In this document: positions 44,072 through 53,049 of the stretch, piece by piece
Numbering within the stretch: the first letter of the stretch is position 1
How the letters are laid out: each line of letters begins with the position of its first letter
Assembly (NCBI RefSeq): GCF_010119975.1
Contig: NZ_CP048222.1
Span: 930,001 to 994,000 of the forward strand
Length of the DNA stretch: 64,000 nt
From: Rhodocytophaga rosea
GTDB taxonomy: Bacteria; Bacteroidota; Bacteroidia; Cytophagales; 172606-1
Reading direction: 5' to 3'
Program-made: the position numbers and the translations under genes
Notes under the pieces: model-generated
Databases searched by the model: none
Told to the model about the DNA's origin: nothing
What the model saw: the letters and a program-made list of their open reading frames with translations, nothing else

Positions 44072-45361
44072 ATGGAAAACAGAAGAAACTTTGTAAAAAA
44101 ACTAAGTGTGGCCACCGGAGCTTTATCTTTAGTCCCAGTCTTAACACCTGTGAAAGCCCGTTCCCTTTCAGAAGCCGGGAAATTAATTAATGATTTATCT
44201 CCGGCAGAGGCGGCCAGAAATGAGGAATACTGGCATACCATTCAGCAAGCGTATACAGTTTCACCTAATATCATCAATTTGAATAATGGCGGAGTAAGTC
44301 CGCAGCCCTTAATCGTGCAGGATGCCGTAGACCGGTATAACCGCATGTCGAACGAAGCGCCTTCATACTTTATGTGGCGGACACTGGATGCCGGAAGGGA
44401 ATCGCTGCGGATGAAACTGGCCGACCTGGCTGGATGCGATCCGGAAGAACTGGCCATTAACCGCAATGCGACGGAAGCTTTAGGCACTGTAATTTTGGGC
44501 TTAAACTTAAAGAAAGGCGATGAAGTGGTACTTACCAAACAGGATTATCCCAATATGATCCAGGCCTGGAAGCAACGGGAAATGCGGGAAGGCATTAAGC
44601 TAAACTGGGTAAACCTGGAATTGCCGATCGAAAATGATGAAATAATTGTACAAAAATTCAAAGAAGCCTTTACACCCCGCACCAAAGTGGTAATGATCAC
44701 CCACATGATCAACTGGACAGGGCAGATTTTGCCGGTAAAAAAGATCAGTAAAATAGCCAGGGAAAGAGGTATTGCTGTACTGGTAGACGGAGCCCATACA
44801 TTTGCCCACCTGGATTATAAAATTCCAGATCTGGATTGTGATTATTATGGCACAAGCCTCCACAAATGGCTGTCTGCTCCGTTTGGTTCAGGCATGTTAT
44901 ATGTGAAGAAAGACAAGATCAAAGACTTATGGCCTTTGTTGCCGAACCAAAACCCTCTGATAGCTGATATCCGCAAGTTTGAAGTACTGGGCACCAGGTC
45001 GTTCCCGATCGAACAGGCGATTGGCCATGCCGTTAACTTTCAGAATGCCATCGGAAACAAGCGCAAAGAAGAAAGATTACGGTATTTGAAAAATTACTGG
45101 GCAGAGAAGGTAGTACACTTGCCTAGGGTAAAACTGAATACATCTCTGAAACCAGAATTCTCCTGTGCCATTGCTAACTTTTCGATAGAAGGTATGGAAC
45201 CCTCAGAAATGGATACGATACTCTTTAACAAATATAAAATTCATACGTCTGCCATTGTATGGGAGAATATTAAAGGAGTCAGGGTAACTCCTCATGTGTA
45301 CACACCACTAAAAGACCTAGACCGCCTGGTAGATGCCATCACCTTTATGGCAAAGAAATAA
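44072..45361 (+). CDS. Class V aminotransferase-fold PLP enzyme, Tat-exported
   Basis: A 429-residue PLP-dependent protein of the cysteine desulfurase/isopenicillin N epimerase group. The N-terminus NRRNFVKKLSVATGA is a twin-arginine signal, so the enzyme is exported folded with its cofactor. LNNGGVSPQPLIVQDA, the PLP Asp in VDGAHTFAHLD and the Schiff-base Lys in TSLHKWLSAPFGSGM are visible. Exported PLP enzymes of this type are frequent in Bacteroidota; the substrate is unknown. It converges with the DUF3419 gene. Confidence 0.9.
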   Translation: MENRRNFVKKLSVATGALSLVPVLTPVKARSLSEAGKLINDLSPAEAARNEEYWHTIQQAYTVSPNIINLNNGGVSPQPLIVQDAVDRYNRMSNEAPSYFMWRTLDAGRESLRMKLADLAGCDPEELAINRNATEALGTVILGLNLKKGDEVVLTKQDYPNMIQAWKQREMREGIKLNWVNLELPIENDEIIVQKFKEAFTPRTKVVMITHMINWTGQILPVKKISKIARERGIAVLVDGAHTFAHLDYKIPDLDCDYYGTSLHKWLSAPFGSGMLYVKKDKIKDLWPLLPNQNPLIADIRKFEVLGTRSFPIEQAIGHAVNFQNAIGNKRKEERLRYLKNYWAEKVVHLPRVKLNTSLKPEFSCAIANFSIEGMEPSEMDTILFNKYKIHTSAIVWENIKGVRVTPHVYTPLKDLDRLVDAITFMAKK

Positions 45362-45403: not shown

Positions 45404-46513
45404 TTATTTAACTATGGTATATGCTGCCACCTTTCCATAAACAAATGAACGGTCCTTTTCAAGCAGTTGCTCGCTGAGTGGTTTATTTTTTCGAATTCTG
45501 TCTTGAAGGCTTTGAGGTATTTCTCTTGGAACAATTAGATTGCGAAAACAACACCTGGCTCCATTTTTTGCTACCCTGGCTACTTCCTCAAAAAGCAGCG
45601 TAGTATCTTCTTCACTCTTTAATTCACAGATATTAGACAGGCTGAAACAATCAATAGAATCAGGTTGCCTCGATTTCAGCCATTGTTTTACATCTGCTGT
45701 AATGAGTTGTAGGTTAGACACATTCTTTTGCAGTATAGGAAAATTCTCTTCTTTCAGATAAGCCGGTACCTGAAAGTTACTTTTGTAATTACCTAATAGA
45801 TAGAGCGCAAGAAAATAGTTGTCTTGCACAGGAACATTTGTTAATACATTATGGGCTCTTTTATAAAAACTTTCTGCATAAGAATGACTGCCATCGTCAA
45901 AATAAAAATAATCTGCACTCAGCCCTCTTCTGGCCAGCATGCGCTTATTAAATAGCATCTTAAATATAAGCCTAAACTGCCATGTATTAAAATGCATATC
46001 ATAAAACTCCTGTTGTTCCTGTAAGCTGGAGGGAGCAAACACCTGCTGAACTTTTCGTCTACCTTGTATCAGTTGCAACATCCTGGAAGCAATACGGACG
46101 AATTTTTCAAAACGGCCCGACATGAGTATTCCATTAGAAATAATAGGTTGATGGGCTAGCCAGAAGGCTAGTGCTGGTTCAGATAAATGAGGTTTTATTT
46201 TTTCAAATATTGCCGGCCGGTTCATGGTATCTGTTAAACCCATCAGGCAAATAAATTCAGGGTAAGAAAGCTGTTGTAAGGCTCTTATTTTTAATTCTAA
46301 TAGATACGTTTGAGCCGGATTAATATCCACAGCATAAATAATAGCCGGATTTAACAATAGCATTTCCAGGGTATTGCAACCGCCAGAGGTAATAGTCATT
46401 ACTTGCTCACCGGGTTTAATTTGTAACGCTGCTTTGTCAGATTCCGGATCTTCCCAGTTCATGGTAAAAATCAGCTTACTTAGTTCAACCTGACTTTTTG
46501 GATTATTCGCCAT
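45404..46513 (-). CDS. BtaA-like AdoMet 3-amino-3-carboxypropyl transferase (DUF3419)
   Basis: A 369-residue protein (start ATG at 46513; the frame is open further but the upstream part lies inside the reductase gene). The AdoMet-binding stretch ITSGGCNTL (~41-49) followed by IYAVDINPAQTYLLELK, then YFYFDDGS (~195) and DCFSLSNICELKSEED (~300) match the BtaA/DUF3419 family. BtaA transfers the 3-amino-3-carboxypropyl group of AdoMet to diacylglycerol, giving a homoserine lipid. The N-methylating partner BtaB is not encoded here. Its start overlaps the AAR-like gene by 11 bp. The lipid acceptor in this organism is unknown. Confidence 0.82.
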   Translation of the reverse strand: MANNPKSQVELSKLIFTMNWEDPESDKAALQIKPGEQVMTITSGGCNTLEMLLLNPAIIYAVDINPAQTYLLELKIRALQQLSYPEFICLMGLTDTMNRPAIFEKIKPHLSEPALAFWLAHQPIISNGILMSGRFEKFVRIASRMLQLIQGRRKVQQVFAPSSLQEQQEFYDMHFNTWQFRLIFKMLFNKRMLARRGLSADYFYFDDGSHSYAESFYKRAHNVLTNVPVQDNYFLALYLLGNYKSNFQVPAYLKEENFPILQKNVSNLQLITADVKQWLKSRQPDSIDCFSLSNICELKSEEDTTLLFEEVARVAKNGARCCFRNLIVPREIPQSLQDRIRKNKPLSEQLLEKDRSFVYGKVAAYTIVK

Positions 46514-47603
46514 ATGTATATTTTTGAATAGACCATAATCCCTGATGATTATAAAAAGGAGCTGGAATAATTCCATGCTTATTTGCCCACAACAGTATTT
46601 CTTCCATTTTTTCCAGGGTAATTTGTCCCCTACCTTGGGAATAGGCATAATGCTTATTCTCAAACGCCAGCACTACAGCTTCCAGAATACAGCCATGGGC
46701 AATTTTACGGGAAGGAACATGATAGAGAGGTAATCTATAATCAGGATAGAAGTGGATATTTCCACATACATAACCCATACCGCCATATAAAAAATGTATT
46801 TTACTGGTATCAATACAAGTTATATCTATATTTTTTGGGTATCCGGCATCTATTACAAGCGTTCCGGTTTTTAAATTATGTAGCTGAATACTGGAACTAC
46901 TGGCAGCAGCAATAATAATATCACCCTCTGAAGCATATTCTTCCACAGAATCCGTGATTGTGCAAGCAGTACCTGAAAGATCATGATATGATTCAAAGAG
47001 CTTTCTCTTATTTCGGGCAACTAAAGTGAGCTGAGCTGATTTTCCGGCAAAATAGTTTACACAAGCACTGCCAATATCGCCTGTAGCACCAATCACTATG
47101 ATATGGCTTTGAGATATATCTTTATCTAAGACCTGGCAAGCATCTTTCACATTTTGCACGATAAAGGCAGCCGTAAGGGTATTGCCTGTAGTAAAAACAG
47201 TTTGAAGCCCAGCTGGAAGCAGCTTAGTCTGGCCCTCGAGCACAATGGAAGTAAAACCACCAAGGGTAGCAATAGGCGCTCCTAATGTATTGGCACAAAA
47301 GGCAGCTTCCTTTACTTTCTGTATATTCTCTTTCAAGTGAATGCTTACCAAAGAATCTGGGCCTATAAAAGTTTCTACATAGCAGCCAGTGATTTTTTTG
47401 TTGTTCAGCGTGGAAGTAACATCAATCTTAAATAAACTTCTGGCAGGAAAAAACGGGAAAATATACCTGATTTCTTCCTCTACAACCTGATTCGTTTGGC
47501 TACCCCGCATCTGATTCACCATCGCATATACATTTTCCCACCTCTCCTGATGGCCAAGAATAGCAAAATCGCATGAATCAGTTATAGGAAGTTTTACTTG
47601 CAT
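46503..47603 (-). CDS. AAR-like long-chain acyl-ACP reductase
   Basis: A 366-residue homologue of cyanobacterial acyl-ACP reductase, which makes fatty aldehydes from acyl-ACP using NADPH. Visible matches: FAILGHQERWENVYAMV (13-29), YVETFIGPDSL, the block APIATLGGFTSIVLEG (109-124), FTTGNTLTAAFIV (137-149), Rossmann turn IGATGDIGSA (171-180), DAGYPKNID (252-260), the catalytic-type Cys305 in HGCILEAVVLAFE, and GQITLEKMEEIL (326-337). In cyanobacteria this Cys forms the acyl-thioester. It is the fourth gene of the operon, 4 bp after the desaturase and overlapping the DUF3419 gene. A homologue in a Bacteroidota-type genome is unusual. No clear alternative family. Confidence 0.88.
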   Translation of the reverse strand: MQVKLPITDSCDFAILGHQERWENVYAMVNQMRGSQTNQVVEEEIRYIFPFFPARSLFKIDVTSTLNNKKITGCYVETFIGPDSLVSIHLKENIQKVKEAAFCANTLGAPIATLGGFTSIVLEGQTKLLPAGLQTVFTTGNTLTAAFIVQNVKDACQVLDKDISQSHIIVIGATGDIGSACVNYFAGKSAQLTLVARNKRKLFESYHDLSGTACTITDSVEEYASEGDIIIAAASSSSIQLHNLKTGTLVIDAGYPKNIDITCIDTSKIHFLYGGMGYVCGNIHFYPDYRLPLYHVPSRKIAHGCILEAVVLAFENKHYAYSQGRGQITLEKMEEILLWANKHGIIPAPFYNHQGLWSIQKYTYGE

Positions 47604-47607
47604 ACAA

Positions 47608-48534
47608 TCAGGCGGAATGAATTTCTTTGTCAGCTACCGGGGAAGGTTCCCGGGTGAGTTCGGGCCCTAACCATAACTTTATATAAATGTGCCAGAAAGA
47701 AAGTTCTTTAGTAGTGGATTGAATACATTTTGGCAAATAAATCCAGGGCATTTTGGGATACTGGTGATGCGCAAGGTGTATATTAAAATTCAGATATAAA
47801 TACCTGACAAGCAACGGCATTTTCAGGTTATGTGCTCCATTTATGATATCTCTGGGCGAAAAAGCATGCGTTACATAATTTTGAGACGACCACACAAAAG
47901 CATGGCAGAAATAAGCCCCAATCAGAAAATATATATCCAGTTTCAGCAGAAAAAATATAATGAACTGGAAAGCAATAACAAGATAGCTTTCCAGGCGGAT
48001 CTTAACAAGCAGTTTATCTTTATTAGCACCCTGTATAATTCCTTTAATTTCATGATTCCAGCTGAAAAGTTTAGAAAAAACCAGTTTGGGAAGCAGGGCA
48101 AACAATACAACAGCTACCACGATCATTATCCATTCCATGCCCAGGCGGACTATATAAAAATAGCCCTGCCTAAGCCATTTCTGTTGATGTGCATAATATA
48201 AATCCCACATCTCATAGTCTGTACGGTTATGTTTATGGTGGTTTAAATGGCACTTGCGGATAAAAGTAAAAGGGGCAACAAATATCCATGAAAGCACCAC
48301 ACCCAGCCAATAATTCAGTTTGCGGTTTGGATGCATCATATCATGCTCAGCTTCATGAATCAAGGAGTACAGCGGTATCATGAGTATAGCAAACAATATG
48401 GCTAAACCAGATTGATAAAGCATCTTCTCTGTGTGCGAACCCATATATAAAACCAGCAAAGCACCTGCAAAACAGCTACCTCCAATTGTCAAATTAAGGC
48501 GGTAAGGAATAGGATAAACAATCTCCTCTTTCAT
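47608..48534 (-). CDS. Fatty-acid desaturase-like membrane protein
   Basis: A 308-residue membrane protein with the histidine boxes of membrane di-iron desaturases/hydroxylases: HEAEH (60-64), HLNHHKH (96-102) and HLAHHQYP (253-260). About four membrane helices lie between them. It should introduce a double bond or hydroxyl into an acyl chain, using O2 and an electron donor. Substrate is not visible: acyl-lipid, aldehyde, alkane or carotenoid are all possible. It is 4 bp upstream of the AAR-like gene, so tight co-transcription is likely. Confidence 0.87.
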   Translation of the reverse strand: MKEEIVYPIPYRLNLTIGGSCFAGALLVLYMGSHTEKMLYQSGLAILFAILMIPLYSLIHEAEHDMMHPNRKLNYWLGVVLSWIFVAPFTFIRKCHLNHHKHNRTDYEMWDLYYAHQQKWLRQGYFYIVRLGMEWIMIVVAVVLFALLPKLVFSKLFSWNHEIKGIIQGANKDKLLVKIRLESYLVIAFQFIIFFLLKLDIYFLIGAYFCHAFVWSSQNYVTHAFSPRDIINGAHNLKMPLLVRYLYLNFNIHLAHHQYPKMPWIYLPKCIQSTTKELSFWHIYIKLWLGPELTREPSPVADKEIHSA

Positions 48535-48578
48535 GCGAAACTCAGGTTGAATGATACATATGCTTATTTGTGATCGCC

Positions 48579-49319
48579 TTAAAAGGGAAGATTAACAATC
48601 CATACCGTTGTTTCTTCTCCTGGCAACCCAATAGCATCCAGTGCCCGGGCATAAGTCCTCAGGGCATTAGCCCGCACATAACGAATGGAAAGCCCGATCT
48701 CATCCAGATCATCTTTCATACAATTGCCATTACATACTCCGCAATGTCCCATCGAATCTGTAGAAGCTGTCCATTGGGCCAATATGGTCATTACATCTTC
48801 ATGAATAGCTTTGAACTTTTGAATAAATAATGACTTATTGAGCTGCAACTCCTGTTGCAAAATTTCAGTAGCATGGCTCAGGTGCTCTTTTTCCTGGTCA
48901 GAGGTCTGAAGTAATAAGGCACCTATTTCACCCCCTATGGCCTCTCCGGCATCTTTGTACATCGACACAGCAAACGATTCAAGCATCACTTCCTGAATAA
49001 TCAGGCAAGCAATAAAATCACCTTTTTGGGCATATTTCAAAAATTTATCCCGCAGCGTTTTCCAATATACGCCTTCAATATTGGCCACAACAGGTAAATC
49101 ATTGGCACTAGCTATCCTCTGAAAGCCCAGCGCATGCTGCCTTTCACTTTCTGCATGTTCTACCGCTTCCATTTTTTCGTGAATATCCGCCATAAGGCCG
49201 GCAAGCGAAGCAAAATTAGACATGCCTACCAGTTCTCCACTAATGGCCTGCGATAATACATCTGCAATTACTTTTCTGCGCCTGACTGTGTCAGAATTTA
49301 TCATGATTTGGGTTTCCAT
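48579..49319 (-). CDS. ADO-like di-iron protein (aldehyde-deformylating oxygenase-like)
   Basis: A 246-residue ferritin-like protein (ATG at 49319; a TTG 33 bases upstream is not needed). It matches cyanobacterial aldehyde-deformylating oxygenase in ligand pattern: Glu29, Glu59-x-x-His62 (ESERQH), Glu114 (VMLESFAV), Glu143-x-x-His146 (QEKEH), against Glu32, Glu60/His63, Glu115, Glu144/His147 in Synechococcus ADO. Helix sequences DFIACLIIQEVMLESFAV and the C-terminal IRYVRANALRTYARALDAIG also resemble it. ADO converts fatty aldehydes to Cn-1 alkanes. Unusual: a CGVCNGNC cluster (193-200) absent from typical ADO. Ten bases separate it from the GNAT stop. Confidence 0.8.
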   Translation of the reverse strand: METQIMINSDTVRRRKVIADVLSQAISGELVGMSNFASLAGLMADIHEKMEAVEHAESERQHALGFQRIASANDLPVVANIEGVYWKTLRDKFLKYAQKGDFIACLIIQEVMLESFAVSMYKDAGEAIGGEIGALLLQTSDQEKEHLSHATEILQQELQLNKSLFIQKFKAIHEDVMTILAQWTASTDSMGHCGVCNGNCMKDDLDEIGLSIRYVRANALRTYARALDAIGLPGEETTVWIVNLPF

Positions 49320-49329
49320 ACTATAAACA

Positions 49330-50376
49330 TTAAACCAGTGAATAATCTTCAAAAGGAACGCCAGCCATTATTTCGTTAAGCAAGGCTGTGTTATTTTTTA
49401 AACTTGTAATGTATCCTACAGATTTGAATTCAAATTTGTAGAACTGTTTGAAGCAGGACAGAAGAGGATCTTTTTCATGTAAGCCTATGCTTACAAAATG
49501 AAAATTTCCCGTAAATGCCTGATGCCTGGCCTGATTTACCAGGTCTAACAATGCAGCCTCCTGGCCTTTCAGGCAATAAAAATTATTTATATACAGAATC
49601 TTAATAGCCTCTCCAATCTCCGGCAATGGGAACAAAGGCAGCACTTTACCCAAACTATTTACAGTATATACCAGCATTTTTAGATAGGGCTTCAGGCCAA
49701 TTATTACATTCTGCTTGTAAGGCAACGTATCTATAAGTGTAATGGCAGCAACTGGCTGTTTTTGAATATATGCCACAAGTACTGCCTGGCTTTGCACTGG
49801 ATCTGCACATAAAATTTTCCCTAACTGATACTGCTGATAAAACTGATTAAATTGTTTAAGTAGATCAGCATCAAATGCTTGCTGGCAAATCTGATACGTA
49901 CTATTTTTTACAGGCTTTCTGGCAGGCAGAAATTGATATACACTAAATTTTCCCAATATATGGAAAACCGGAAGAGCTGCACGGCCTTCAAAAACTGGCA
50001 GCACCCGGTTATTGCCATCAGCCACTGTACAAAAAAGCAGGTCTGCTCCTTGTGATTGCAGATAGTGCTGCATCTGAGAAACCAGCTTAAAGGCGTATAC
50101 CTGTGACCGGAAAGCATTATCTATTTTCAAATCACTTAAGTAATACAGGTCTGTTGCTTGTTTATTGACAAAAACCTTATTTTTTGAAGCTGAAAAACTT
50201 CCTATAATCCGGCTGTTCTTTTCCAGAACATACGTAATACTTTTTCCTCTCGCCTCCAGAAGACTAAAAAAATCAGGCTTCCTGTCAATGCGCAGAGATA
50301 TGCTGCCCTGCATGGGATTGCTGGCGGTGAGTACCAGTAATGGTTCGTTATCGGAGGGTTCAGCAATTCTGATCAT
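49330..50376 (-). CDS. GNAT-like acyltransferase
   Basis: A 348-residue protein, first gene of the operon. The N-terminal half (residues ~1-150) has the GNAT layout: a beta-rich start, then LYYLSDLKIDNAFRSQVYAF, the acyl-CoA-binding helix, and a LLFCTVADGNNRVLPVFEG stretch. The second half (~180-340) seems to be a related, more divergent fold, so it may be a double-GNAT protein. GNAT enzymes transfer acyl groups to amines; the substrate is unknown. A broken dyad lies 36-76 bases upstream. Context suggests a role in modifying the operon's lipid product, which is inference. Confidence 0.6.
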   Translation of the reverse strand: MIRIAEPSDNEPLLVLTASNPMQGSISLRIDRKPDFFSLLEARGKSITYVLEKNSRIIGSFSASKNKVFVNKQATDLYYLSDLKIDNAFRSQVYAFKLVSQMQHYLQSQGADLLFCTVADGNNRVLPVFEGRAALPVFHILGKFSVYQFLPARKPVKNSTYQICQQAFDADLLKQFNQFYQQYQLGKILCADPVQSQAVLVAYIQKQPVAAITLIDTLPYKQNVIIGLKPYLKMLVYTVNSLGKVLPLFPLPEIGEAIKILYINNFYCLKGQEAALLDLVNQARHQAFTGNFHFVSIGLHEKDPLLSCFKQFYKFEFKSVGYITSLKNNTALLNEIMAGVPFEDYSLV

Positions 50377-50795: not shown

Positions 50796-51845
50796 TTAAA
50801 CCGTAGCCAGCAATAGCTTCACAAATTCATCTATTTTATCTTCGTATTCCTCGGTTAAGGTAATTCCCAGCTCTTTCAAGGATGTCAGATTTTCAGGTTC
50901 GGCATTATCAATGTCGGCTTCTATGTCTATGGGCAGTTCGGGATTGATGCGCAGGTACTGATTGCTTTTACCGATGTTTTCATATAACTGGCTCAAATGA
51001 TAGTCAACCGTTTCTGCATTGGCTGTAGCGGCAATGTCAATAATAGGTTTGCTCCATGCGGCTAATCCCCAGTCTTTGGCATCCTCGTAAGTATATTGCG
51101 TTTTAGGCAACCCGGTTCCCAGAGAAAAAATAAGCAATTGTTCGATAGGCAGTGACCTGAGTTGCGGCTCCTGTTGAGAAAATATCTTACGGGCTTCTGT
51201 AAAGGCACATAAAGCAGGGTTATTGGCAAATATACTTCCATCTATTAAGGTATATCCTACGCCGGAAAAAGACTGGATTTCTTTACACTCAAAATAAGTG
51301 GGCAAAGCCGTAGCAGCCCTGGCTACATCGCGCACAAAAAAATCGGCGGATGGCTTATCCATGGCACTGGTCCGGTTAAAAAAATAAGCATTCCGTTTAG
51401 TAATATCGTAGGCGGTGATCAGGCAGGGCTTGAGCAGATGTTTTAGGTGCAGGTCTTCAAAATAGCTGTTGAATACTTTTTCAATCTCGGTAGAAGAATA
51501 TTTCTCATCAATTAAACCACCCAGGCTTACAATCTTATGATCGAAGGTTTCATTAAAAATTGTAGCCGCATATTTCACATAGAGATCCACTACCTGACTG
51601 GCATTAAACCGTGCCGAATGAATATGCGGCTTTACCGGACTGAGATAGGCACAAGCCAGAATAGCACCGGTACCGGTTCCTGCAATCAGGTCGAAATAAT
51701 CAGCAAGGCGGCTTTCGGGATTTCCGGTTCTGGCCTGAAGCCTGTGTTCCAGCGTAGCCAGTATTTGTGCAGCAATAATTCCTCTTACGCCTCCTCCATC
51801 AATGGAAAGGATGCTTTTGTATTTTTTCGGTTTAGATGGATTCAT
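50796..51845 (-). CDS. Patatin-like phospholipase with GTGTG in place of GxSxG
   Basis: A 349-residue patatin-family protein: oxyanion loop DGGGVRGIIAAQIL (~17-30), the nucleophile-elbow region LIAGTGTGAILA (~55), and the dyad Asp in LIDGSIFANNPAL (~210). In normal members the elbow is GTSTG with a catalytic Ser; here the codons read ACC GGT ACC GGT, so Ser is replaced by Gly. Plant pPLAIII proteins naturally carry GxGxG and are reported to keep activity, so loss of function is not certain. If active it would hydrolyse membrane acyl-lipids; no other toxin or defence gene is nearby. Confidence 0.87.
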   Translation of the reverse strand: MNPSKPKKYKSILSIDGGGVRGIIAAQILATLEHRLQARTGNPESRLADYFDLIAGTGTGAILACAYLSPVKPHIHSARFNASQVVDLYVKYAATIFNETFDHKIVSLGGLIDEKYSSTEIEKVFNSYFEDLHLKHLLKPCLITAYDITKRNAYFFNRTSAMDKPSADFFVRDVARAATALPTYFECKEIQSFSGVGYTLIDGSIFANNPALCAFTEARKIFSQQEPQLRSLPIEQLLIFSLGTGLPKTQYTYEDAKDWGLAAWSKPIIDIAATANAETVDYHLSQLYENIGKSNQYLRINPELPIDIEADIDNAEPENLTSLKELGITLTEEYEDKIDEFVKLLLATV

Positions 51846-51978: not shown

Positions 51979-53049
51979 TCAGCTCCGAGTATAAAACTTT
52001 TTTCGCAGATCTGCTAAAAGCAGGTTAATTTTTTGGTAATCCGGATGATCCGGCAGACCGGAAGCCTCATATGCCTGTTCAATGCGTTCCATCTTTTGTT
52101 CCGACAATGCCAGCAGTTCTTCATAGGAATAAGCCCCGCCTCTGATCTTAAGGAGTTCATCCCGGTTAGGCCGCCTCACCAGGATATGCTTCTGTACCGC
52201 AATTTCTTCTGCCATCTCCAGCAGCCGGATGGTATGCATCATATTTTTGGCATCGTAGTTTTTGCCATGTTGCAAGGTATTGGCATAGCGTTCCTGGTTT
52301 CTGTTTTCTACCCATTCCCAGTAGTCCTTATAATCTTTGCAATAGGTAGAATAGCCATCTTTGTTGAAAGAGAGATAGGTAGCAGGCTCCATTCCGGCAG
52401 GAACACTACTAAGGGATACATCATTGGAGGAGTCATTGCGGTAAATGCCTGAAAAACCAAACGAGGCAGCAGGTGTATCGTCATAGAATAAGGCATACAG
52501 GTTTTTAATGTGAGGCACATTTACCAGTCCGCACCGTTCCTGCACCCAGCTTTTGCCGGCTAGCCACTCTCTGGCCGGTTGCGAACCAATTCCTGCCGTA
52601 ACATAGCAAAAGTCTATGATCTCTTTCCGTTCGGGAGCCACCGGATTTACTATTTTTTTATTCAATCCTCTCGCCTTCTGCACCTGAGCCCTGGCATATC
52701 CTGCTAATGTTACTTTACATAGCTTAGACAAAAACAACTCCGGGCGGATTTGCTCAAACAACGGATGCCGGATGAGCACACAATCTTCAGGCGCATTCAG
52801 CATTTCCAGAATATTGGGGTTATTTTTATAAAGCAACTCTATAAACCGCTTCAGCTCATAATATACAATATCATTGTTGGTATCATTTACCTGTTCTATA
52901 TAGCCCATGCCATAAAAATCAGATTCCGGCAGCACAAATACACCCCGGATATCAGTATCGGAAGTGGGTAGTGAAGTGCCATAGGCTTTACTACCAGAAA
53001 TGCATTCGAAAATAATCAGGTTCTGCGCTTTGAGTTGTTCAATGGTCAT
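51979..53049 (-). CDS. YcgL-type nucleotidyltransferase
   Basis: A 356-residue protein of the predicted nucleotidyltransferase superfamily (COG3541). Signature GSKAYGTSLPTSDTDIRG (residues ~19-36) gives the polymerase-beta-type G-S...D-x-D site. The remainder is helical with a long middle region. The substrate of this family is not established; members are often near phage or defence genes, but none is obvious here. Upstream of the patatin-like gene by 133 bp. Confidence 0.82.
   Translation of the reverse strand: MTIEQLKAQNLIIFECISGSKAYGTSLPTSDTDIRGVFVLPESDFYGMGYIEQVNDTNNDIVYYELKRFIELLYKNNPNILEMLNAPEDCVLIRHPLFEQIRPELFLSKLCKVTLAGYARAQVQKARGLNKKIVNPVAPERKEIIDFCYVTAGIGSQPAREWLAGKSWVQERCGLVNVPHIKNLYALFYDDTPAASFGFSGIYRNDSSNDVSLSSVPAGMEPATYLSFNKDGYSTYCKDYKDYWEWVENRNQERYANTLQHGKNYDAKNMMHTIRLLEMAEEIAVQKHILVRRPNRDELLKIRGGAYSYEELLALSEQKMERIEQAYEASGLPDHPDYQKINLLLADLRKKFYTRS

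Follow-up and report, generated by a model that had tools for sequence, protein, structure and literature searches.

A conserved Bacteroidota operon of AAR, ADO-like, DUF3419 and double-GNAT genes, possibly for the synthesis of an amino-lipid

The window analyzed here, 64,000 nucleotides corresponding to positions 930001–994000 of the single 8.98 Mb contig (NZ_CP048222.1) of Rhodocytophaga rosea, contains an operon in which homologues of the two cyanobacterial hydrocarbon enzymes, acyl-ACP reductase (AAR; ACP, acyl carrier protein) and aldehyde deformylating oxygenase (ADO), are accompanied by a DUF3419 protein and a GNAT-superfamily protein. Five minus-strand open reading frames (ORFs) were confirmed at 45404–50376 in the order GNAT, ADO-like, desaturase, AAR and DUF3419, and with ATG starts for the ADO-like and DUF3419 genes the intergenic gaps are 10, 44, 4 and −11, all as given in the original prediction, a reading of this DNA made from its letters. 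That prediction treated the five genes as one set; the comparison of related loci showed that the unit is a four-gene core (GNAT, ADO-like, AAR and DUF3419) with an optional desaturase. The operon is real and conserved, and a literature search covering titles and abstract openings of open-licence papers gave no description of the gene set among the matches listed. Its enzymes come from known superfamilies, and what is new is their combination and the ADO-like family. We tentatively propose, with a probability of about 0.4, that the core turns a fatty aldehyde into an N-acylated amino-lipid of the homoserine type.

To describe the unit, 25 loci were gathered from a species-genome collection by an ADO-only query with exact ADO peptides; the presence of ADO in 25/25 is thus true by construction, the real family is larger than these 25 loci, and some of the loci are short contigs. 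All 25 are from Bacteroidota (Cytophagales, Chitinophagales/Sphingobacteriales and Flavobacteriales), and the operon neighborhood is conserved among them: GNAT and AAR genes were each found in 25/25 loci, DUF3419 in 22/25 and the desaturase in 10/25. The GNAT gene is located immediately upstream of ADO in 24 loci, the exception being L047, where 346 nt separate the ADO gene from the end of the contig and a GNAT gene is at the contig's far end. The AAR and ADO genes are adjacent, as in the cyanobacterial pathway; in 20/25 loci the AAR ORF, taken at its longest, shares 25 nt with the ADO ORF, a figure that rests on longest-ORF starts. Three loci are without DUF3419; two of them (L039 and L049) reach contig edges before it, and the third, L053 from Muricauda, keeps GNAT, ADO and AAR and has a cytochrome P450 gene at the place of DUF3419.

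The results of searching 395 Bacteroidota genomes showed that the ADO family and strong AAR matches occur in the same two genomes, the window's genome among them, versus 46 genomes with DUF3419. Within the order of the window ADO was found in 4/380 genomes, two of which are Rhodocytophaga. When the four core proteins were compared over 23 organisms, their distance matrices correlated with r of 0.82–0.88, and none of 2000 permutations gave a value as high. The company that GNAT, AAR and DUF3419 keep with ADO is more than chance. Considering the rarity of the unit, its taxonomic spread and its gene-tree placement (two Algoriphagus species sit apart in the DUF3419 tree), we infer that it spread by transfer. 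On plasmids, ADO relatives were absent at E 1e-3; the plasmid AAR matches from seven records were discarded, all being annotated as class III aminotransferases and PigE-like (best E 4e-14).

Among the individual steps, the reduction of a thioester to an aldehyde by the AAR homologue is the best supported, because both the catalytic Cys and the nucleotide-loop residues are conserved. The protein matched TIGR04058 with 166.6 bits over 334/339 positions, below the equivalog cut-off of 449.7, and a sequence search of solved structures aligned it to PDB entry 6jzq with an E value of 2.7e-33. Cys305 is present in 26/26 homologues (26 operon sequences each were compared for GNAT, the ADO-like protein and AAR) and aligns with Cys294, the catalytic Cys of S. 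elongatus AAR (PMC7089970). The GATGDIG loop is also retained, with G172, T174, G175, D176 and G178 in 26/26. An AAR-like reductase domain is shared with the PigE-type thioester reductase-aminotransferases (NF053554, 103 bits), but the match to AAR is the stronger, and neither the protein nor a core neighbor has an aminotransferase domain. TIGR04058 matched in 120/395 genomes; the matches other than the two strong ones were not counted as AAR, since they are HemA-like and other dehydrogenases covering, among the matches listed, at most 145/339 positions, mostly in the nucleotide-binding part.

Judged from sequence and model together, the ADO-like protein is a separate family with the ADO fold and all six ligands. 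It scored 44.3 bits against the gathering cut-off of 28 of PF11266 (44 bits in the whole-genome search) and 46.6 bits against the TIGR04059 equivalog cut-off of 222.65, and it matched ADOs in the search of solved structures with a best E value of 2.6e-7 (5k53). The AlphaFold2 model (pLDDT 91.4) was closest to a cyanobacterial ADO (Z 26.9, 218 residues, root-mean-square deviation 2.2, 19% identity), and identities to the solved ADOs among the matches listed were 16–20%; next came 3ez0, an uncharacterized ferritin-like protein (Z 19.8), then 6d9f (Z 19.7) and VlmB, an azoxy synthase (8wvr, Z 19.4). The six di-iron ligands E40, E70, H73, E125, E154 and H157 are invariant in 26/26, and their spacings, 29/2/28/2 in 25 sequences and 29/2/29/2 in one, fit the two EX28-29EX2H motifs stated for ADO (PMC4286721). 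The family has additional invariant residues, namely His66, which precedes the first ExxH as HxxxExxH in 26/26, His160, His184 and a Cys loop (C204, C207, C211 and K213 in 26/26; H203 in 24/26); these additional His and Cys residues are missing from the aligned cyanobacterial ADOs. The stretch with the Cys loop is about 18 residues longer than its counterpart in the aligned cyanobacterial ADO, as measured in an hmmsearch alignment of two pieces, the second of which scored 1.6 bits. Moreover, invariant Tyr96/Trp97 stand where SeADO has Phe86/Phe87 (aligned to the F86Y/F87Y mutant). The acids of ADO helix 7 named as docking AAR, E196, E200 and D201 (PMC7089970), correspond in the region aligned at 1.6 bits to positions 225, 228 and 229, which are non-acidic in 26/26, while Asp or Glu occupies position 222 in 19.

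These data bear directly on a true alkane or alkene pathway, in which acyl-ACP would be converted through the aldehyde to a Cn-1 alkane, and GNAT and DUF3419 would make a separate lipid. Such a pathway is consistent with the end-to-end homology of AAR and its Cys294 equivalent, with the ADO fold and its correctly spaced ligands, and with the more distant structure 6d9f, which its entry title credits with aldehyde deformylating activity; the Muricauda operon without DUF3419 would also suit it, as would a Flavobacteriaceae gene for a fatty aldehyde decarbonylase from an Arctic lake, from which alkane production is inferred in PMC10176705. However, neither protein comes near its equivalog cut-off, the identity to solved ADOs is low, the invariant His and Cys residues and the replacement of both Phe residues set the ADO-like protein apart from the cyanobacterial enzyme, and the steady presence of GNAT and DUF3419 is left unexplained. 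We regard this pathway as unlikely. Of the alkane-type pair named in the original prediction there remain an AAR relative and an ADO relative, each with its catalytic residues intact: the PF11266 cut-off was exceeded in the profile search, the label itself was not upheld by the TIGR04058 and TIGR04059 scores, the additional residues or the P450 gene of L053, and the alkane reading is weakened.

The additional His66 raised another explanation, that the ADO-like protein is an N-oxygenase acting on the amine from the DUF3419 step, or on its condensate with the aldehyde that AAR supplies; the result would be a fatty natural product in N-oxidised form. A seventh His in HxxxExxH spacing is described as characteristic of FDO N-oxygenases in PMC12154687, the ferritin-like di-iron fold is shared with them, and VlmB, which acts in azoxy synthesis (PMC11705231), is among the structures that follow the ADOs and 3ez0. 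In Dob3, however, this His belongs to the second motif (H225, E229 and H232; PMC12154687), whereas His66 is on the first ExxH; position 150 of the ADO-like protein, four before E154, is Ile in 24/26 and Thr in 2/26. The best ADO also lies 7 Z units above VlmB and the lowest ADO row 4 above it, and no hydrazine-forming partner gene was recognized in the operon core. N-oxygenation is improbable as the function of this family.

The DUF3419 protein covers the full length of its Pfam domain (PF11899, 249.6 bits, cut-off 28.2), and a solved relative was not found by sequence at E 1. In a tree of 42 DUF3419 proteins, the 23 operon members grouped in a single clade (SH-aLRT 98), separate from 12 Bacteroidota proteins whose genes have a methyltransferase gene downstream and from five proteins of clusters with a UbiA-like gene. 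This tree was built by a quick method and includes no characterized BtaA; the end branches of L121 and L115 are long, four rows are of odd composition, and long branches meet where the methyltransferase-linked clade joins the rest, as a program warning stated. Genomes with DUF3419 outside the operon were represented by 20 of 44, and L120 was dropped from the tree and from the neighbor counts because it had no phmmer DUF3419 match. A same-strand methyltransferase gene was located within 1.2 kb of DUF3419 in 12/19 of these loci and was missing from 7/19; its label as BtaB-like derives from gene position and Pfam domain, the five of the 12 that were checked with Pfam all being methyltransferases. 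When a profile of the 12 methyltransferase neighbors was run against the stretches of the 25 operon loci, 0/25 matched at E 1e-5. Among the seven loci without methyltransferase, L121 has a GNAT homologous to that of the operon (82.6 bits), and in each of the other six a gene of one family, c9, occurs at a distance of −43 to 6877 nt from DUF3419; c9 was not used as a GNAT homologue, its hhalign probability being 41 over 70 columns, and two members scanned besides the one from L114 had no Pfam match.

These results were weighed against the view that DUF3419 works on diacylglycerol as an ordinary BtaA of betaine-lipid synthesis, with the AAR/ADO pair only trimming or detoxifying aldehydes. The full-length PF11899 match is consistent with it, as BtaA acts on diacylglycerol in the account of the BtaA and BtaB reactions in PMC10685587, but the separate clade, the lack of a BtaB-like match in the locus stretches, the linkage to AAR/ADO in 22/25 loci and the neighboring GNAT are not accounted for, and we consider it quite improbable. 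The name BtaA-like in the original prediction therefore holds for the Pfam family, and the clade and the neighbors do not extend it to the BtaA/BtaB pair. The neighborhoods would suggest that betaine-lipid loci methylate the amine formed by DUF3419 and that the operon and its GNAT-linked relatives acylate it.

Another type of DUF3419 cluster was observed in five loci of other Bacteroidota (L116, L117, L118, L119 and L122), in which a UbiA prenyltransferase-like gene, a phosphoenolpyruvate-synthase/PigC-RedH-like protein and c9 occur in 5/5, and HMG-CoA reductase and AMP-binding families each in 3/5; the domains were named by Pfam and NCBIfam in L118. A phosphatidylserine decarboxylase-like gene (L117:6570-7511) overlaps the DUF3419 gene as longest ORFs, which suggests that the aminocarboxypropyl head is decarboxylated in that lineage.

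The GNAT of the operon was modelled as an N-myristoyltransferase (NMT)-like double GNAT, with what would be a long-chain N-acyltransferase fold. Its sequence matched PF00583 (27.4 bits, cut-off 20.7), and the AlphaFold model, a double GNAT with pLDDT 91.6, was built on an alignment of 25/26 rows, L057 with its extended ORF being left out. The 50 structural matches listed are all NMT entries, the best with Z 23.6 over about 290 residues, and the identity among these rows is 9–14%; a list of 50 rows showing NMT only leaves other double-GNAT families possible. The model aligned through residue 496 of HsNMT1 with Z 23, and most alignments end at or beside the C-terminal residue of NMT, whose carboxylate is the catalytic base (PMC7048800). 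All 26 operon GNATs stop at one alignment column, and 25 of them end in Val or Ile. Like NMT, the protein has two adjacent GNAT domains and a C terminus reached by the alignment; unlike the NMT entries, it is bacterial.

The GNAT matched in 64/395 genomes, mainly over short acetyltransferase-sized stretches, and a long match (at least 180/350 positions) was found in eight (G000, G201, G388, G328, G387, G385, G068 and G242, the last in two pieces). In five of these eight the GNAT gene adjoins DUF3419, namely in the two operons and in G388, G242 and G068, and the latter three had no ADO or AAR match in the searches of the 395 genomes. The two genes are divergent at a contig end in G388, where the DUF3419 match is weak (45.7 bits), and on the same strand, overlapping as longest ORFs, in G242 and G068, whose GNATs are distant from that of the operon (74.8 and 82.6 bits, respectively) and have a different C-terminal sequence. 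The NMT-like fold and the recurrence beside DUF3419 in genomes without ADO/AAR strengthened the amino-lipid half of the original prediction.

In L121 and L159 the DUF3419 and NMT-like GNAT genes overlap as longest ORFs and a 331-residue gene follows downstream in both, that of L121 being an alpha/beta hydrolase. ADO and AAR were not found there in the searches of the 395 genomes, and the arrangement is possibly a simpler form of the pathway.

From the homology, the conserved active sites, the linkage, the correlated divergence and the adjacency of GNAT and DUF3419 outside the operon, we infer the substrates, the order of steps and the product as follows. AAR would reduce an acyl thioester (acyl-ACP) to a fatty aldehyde via Cys305, a step that is well supported. 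The ADO-like di-iron enzyme, whose partnership with AAR is likewise well supported, would oxidize the aldehyde by deformylation or another oxygenation to a chain bearing a nucleophile. DUF3419, as a family-level assignment, would add the S-adenosylmethionine (SAM)-derived head group by aminocarboxypropyl transfer, a type of reaction reviewed in PMC10491745, and the NMT-like GNAT, as its fold and linkage suggest, would N-acylate the new amine. The simplest product would be a phosphorus-free lipid with two chains, e.g., N-acyl-O-alkylhomoserine. The two-step synthesis of aminolipids by OlsB/OlsA, GlsB and GluB would be similar in that a GNAT-superfamily enzyme N-acylates an amino acid moiety, but those systems use PF13444 acyltransferases together with an O-acyltransferase (PMC11631085), whereas the operon has a different GNAT and a head group presumably derived from SAM.

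Several observations weigh against this amino-lipid. The strongest is the Muricauda operon L053: DUF3419 was not found in that genome as assembled, which implies that aminocarboxypropyl transfer is dispensable and argues against a fixed amino-lipid end product. The product of deformylation is an alkane, which cannot accept an aminocarboxypropyl group; hence the chain would have to leave the ADO-like enzyme with a heteroatom still attached, unless the operon makes two products. The likeness of the GNAT to NMT is one of predicted fold, with no NMT among the best 60 of 71 sequence profile matches, which were mostly acetyltransferases, and the GNATs of L121 and L159 terminate in ADAIQI instead of EDYSLV. 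The known aminolipid N-acyltransferases are described as carrying PF13444 (PMC11631085), and the operon GNAT matched PF00583. Three of the eight genomes with a long GNAT match (G328, G387 and G385) have no DUF3419 match. Furthermore, c9 is GNAT-like through a single weak member (L114, PF00583 21.7 bits, cut-off 20.7), and DUF3419 of L114 is fused to a PEMT-like methyltransferase domain, so the division into methylated and acylated amines is not clean. Because of c9, the fusion in L114 and the three genomes without DUF3419, our estimate for the amino-lipid was lowered from 0.42 to 0.40, and that for an ordinary BtaA was raised very slightly.

A bolder version of the amino-lipid proposal, which we think rather unlikely, is that the core makes an undescribed class of glycerol-free lipid with a SAM-derived homoserine head, one N-acyl chain and one chain obtained via a fatty aldehyde, with the ADO-like protein as a new di-iron enzyme whose additional His and Cys loop divert the oxidation of the aldehyde away from alkane release, toward a different oxidation in which a heteroatom is kept. 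If the amino-lipid proposal is right, the hydrocarbon chemistry of cyanobacteria would be linked with the head-group chemistry of betaine lipids in an additional route to lipids for membranes or signalling. The ADO-like family, with its invariant additional ligand-like residues and a conserved AAR beside it, offers a system for studying what steers a di-iron scaffold toward deformylation or toward other oxidations. It also calls for caution in reading Bacteroidota ADO-family genes at once as alkane producers, as has been done for the Flavobacteriaceae gene in PMC10176705, which may or may not belong to this family.

The coordinates of the features are collected in Table 1. A scan for promoters and terminators gave sites no commoner than in shuffled sequences (15 versus 19.5 and 3 versus 5.0, respectively).

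Table 1. Features of the operon in the window (position 1 is the first letter of the window).
Feature	Position	Strand	Basis
Double-GNAT acyltransferase-like protein, 348 residues, first gene of the operon	49330..50376	-	PF00583, AlphaFold2 model
C-terminal EDYSLV of the GNAT	49333..49350	-	Common end column in 26/26 operon homologues
ADO-like ferritin-fold di-iron protein	48579..49319	-	Likely ATG start 49319; longest ORF from TTG 49352
HxxxExxH (H66, E70, H73; numbering of the 257-residue ORF)	49134..49157	-	Two ADO ligands and the additional invariant His
HCxxCxxxCxK loop, residues 203-213 of the ADO-like protein	48714..48746	-	Alignment of 26 sequences
Membrane fatty-acid desaturase-like protein, accessory	47608..48534	-	PF00487, His boxes
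AAR homologue (acyl-ACP/acyl-CoA reductase)	46503..47603	-	TIGR04058, 6jzq alignment
Codon of AAR Cys305, matching catalytic C294 of S. elongatus AAR	46689..46691	-	6jzq alignment
DUF3419 protein, predicted 3-amino-3-carboxypropyl transferase	45404..46513	-	Likely ATG start 46513; longest ORF from TTG 46663

Accessory genes differ among the loci. The desaturase (PF00487, 77.8 bits, cut-off 29.7; His boxes HEAEH, HLNHH and HLAHH) separates ADO from AAR in Rhodocytophaga; the other nine loci with a desaturase gene carry it downstream of DUF3419. A START-domain family, which weighs in favor of the amino-lipid, was found in 2/25 loci, as named by Pfam on one member, and P450 relatives in 4/25, as named by Pfam on two; of these four, one has the reverse orientation and another is truncated at a contig end. 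A redoxin family stands between the ADO-like and AAR genes in 2/25 loci (L053:8704-9423 and L049:8724-9419), its L053 member being an AhpC/TSA protein related to SelL (Pfam, NCBIfam); it could handle peroxide from uncoupled turnover of the di-iron enzyme.

The genes flanking the operon in the window, a pyridoxal phosphate (PLP) enzyme and a patatin, were rejected as members of the unit, since no relatives of them were labelled in the 25 loci and L034, the second Rhodocytophaga locus, is flanked by different genes. The former (44072-45361, plus strand) is a PvdN/SufS-like PLP enzyme with an N-terminal RRNFVKK, a stretch that we take to resemble a twin-arginine translocation (Tat) signal. The latter (50796-51845, minus strand) is a patatin-like phospholipase resembling the effectors of CBASS defence systems (NF041079, 163.4 bits, cut-off 200; PADLOC phospholipase effector, 209.4 bits). 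At 133 bases from it, on the same strand, lies an RlaP nucleotidyltransferase-family gene (51979-53049, PF10127) that had no PADLOC match, and the two genes are a possible defence pair.

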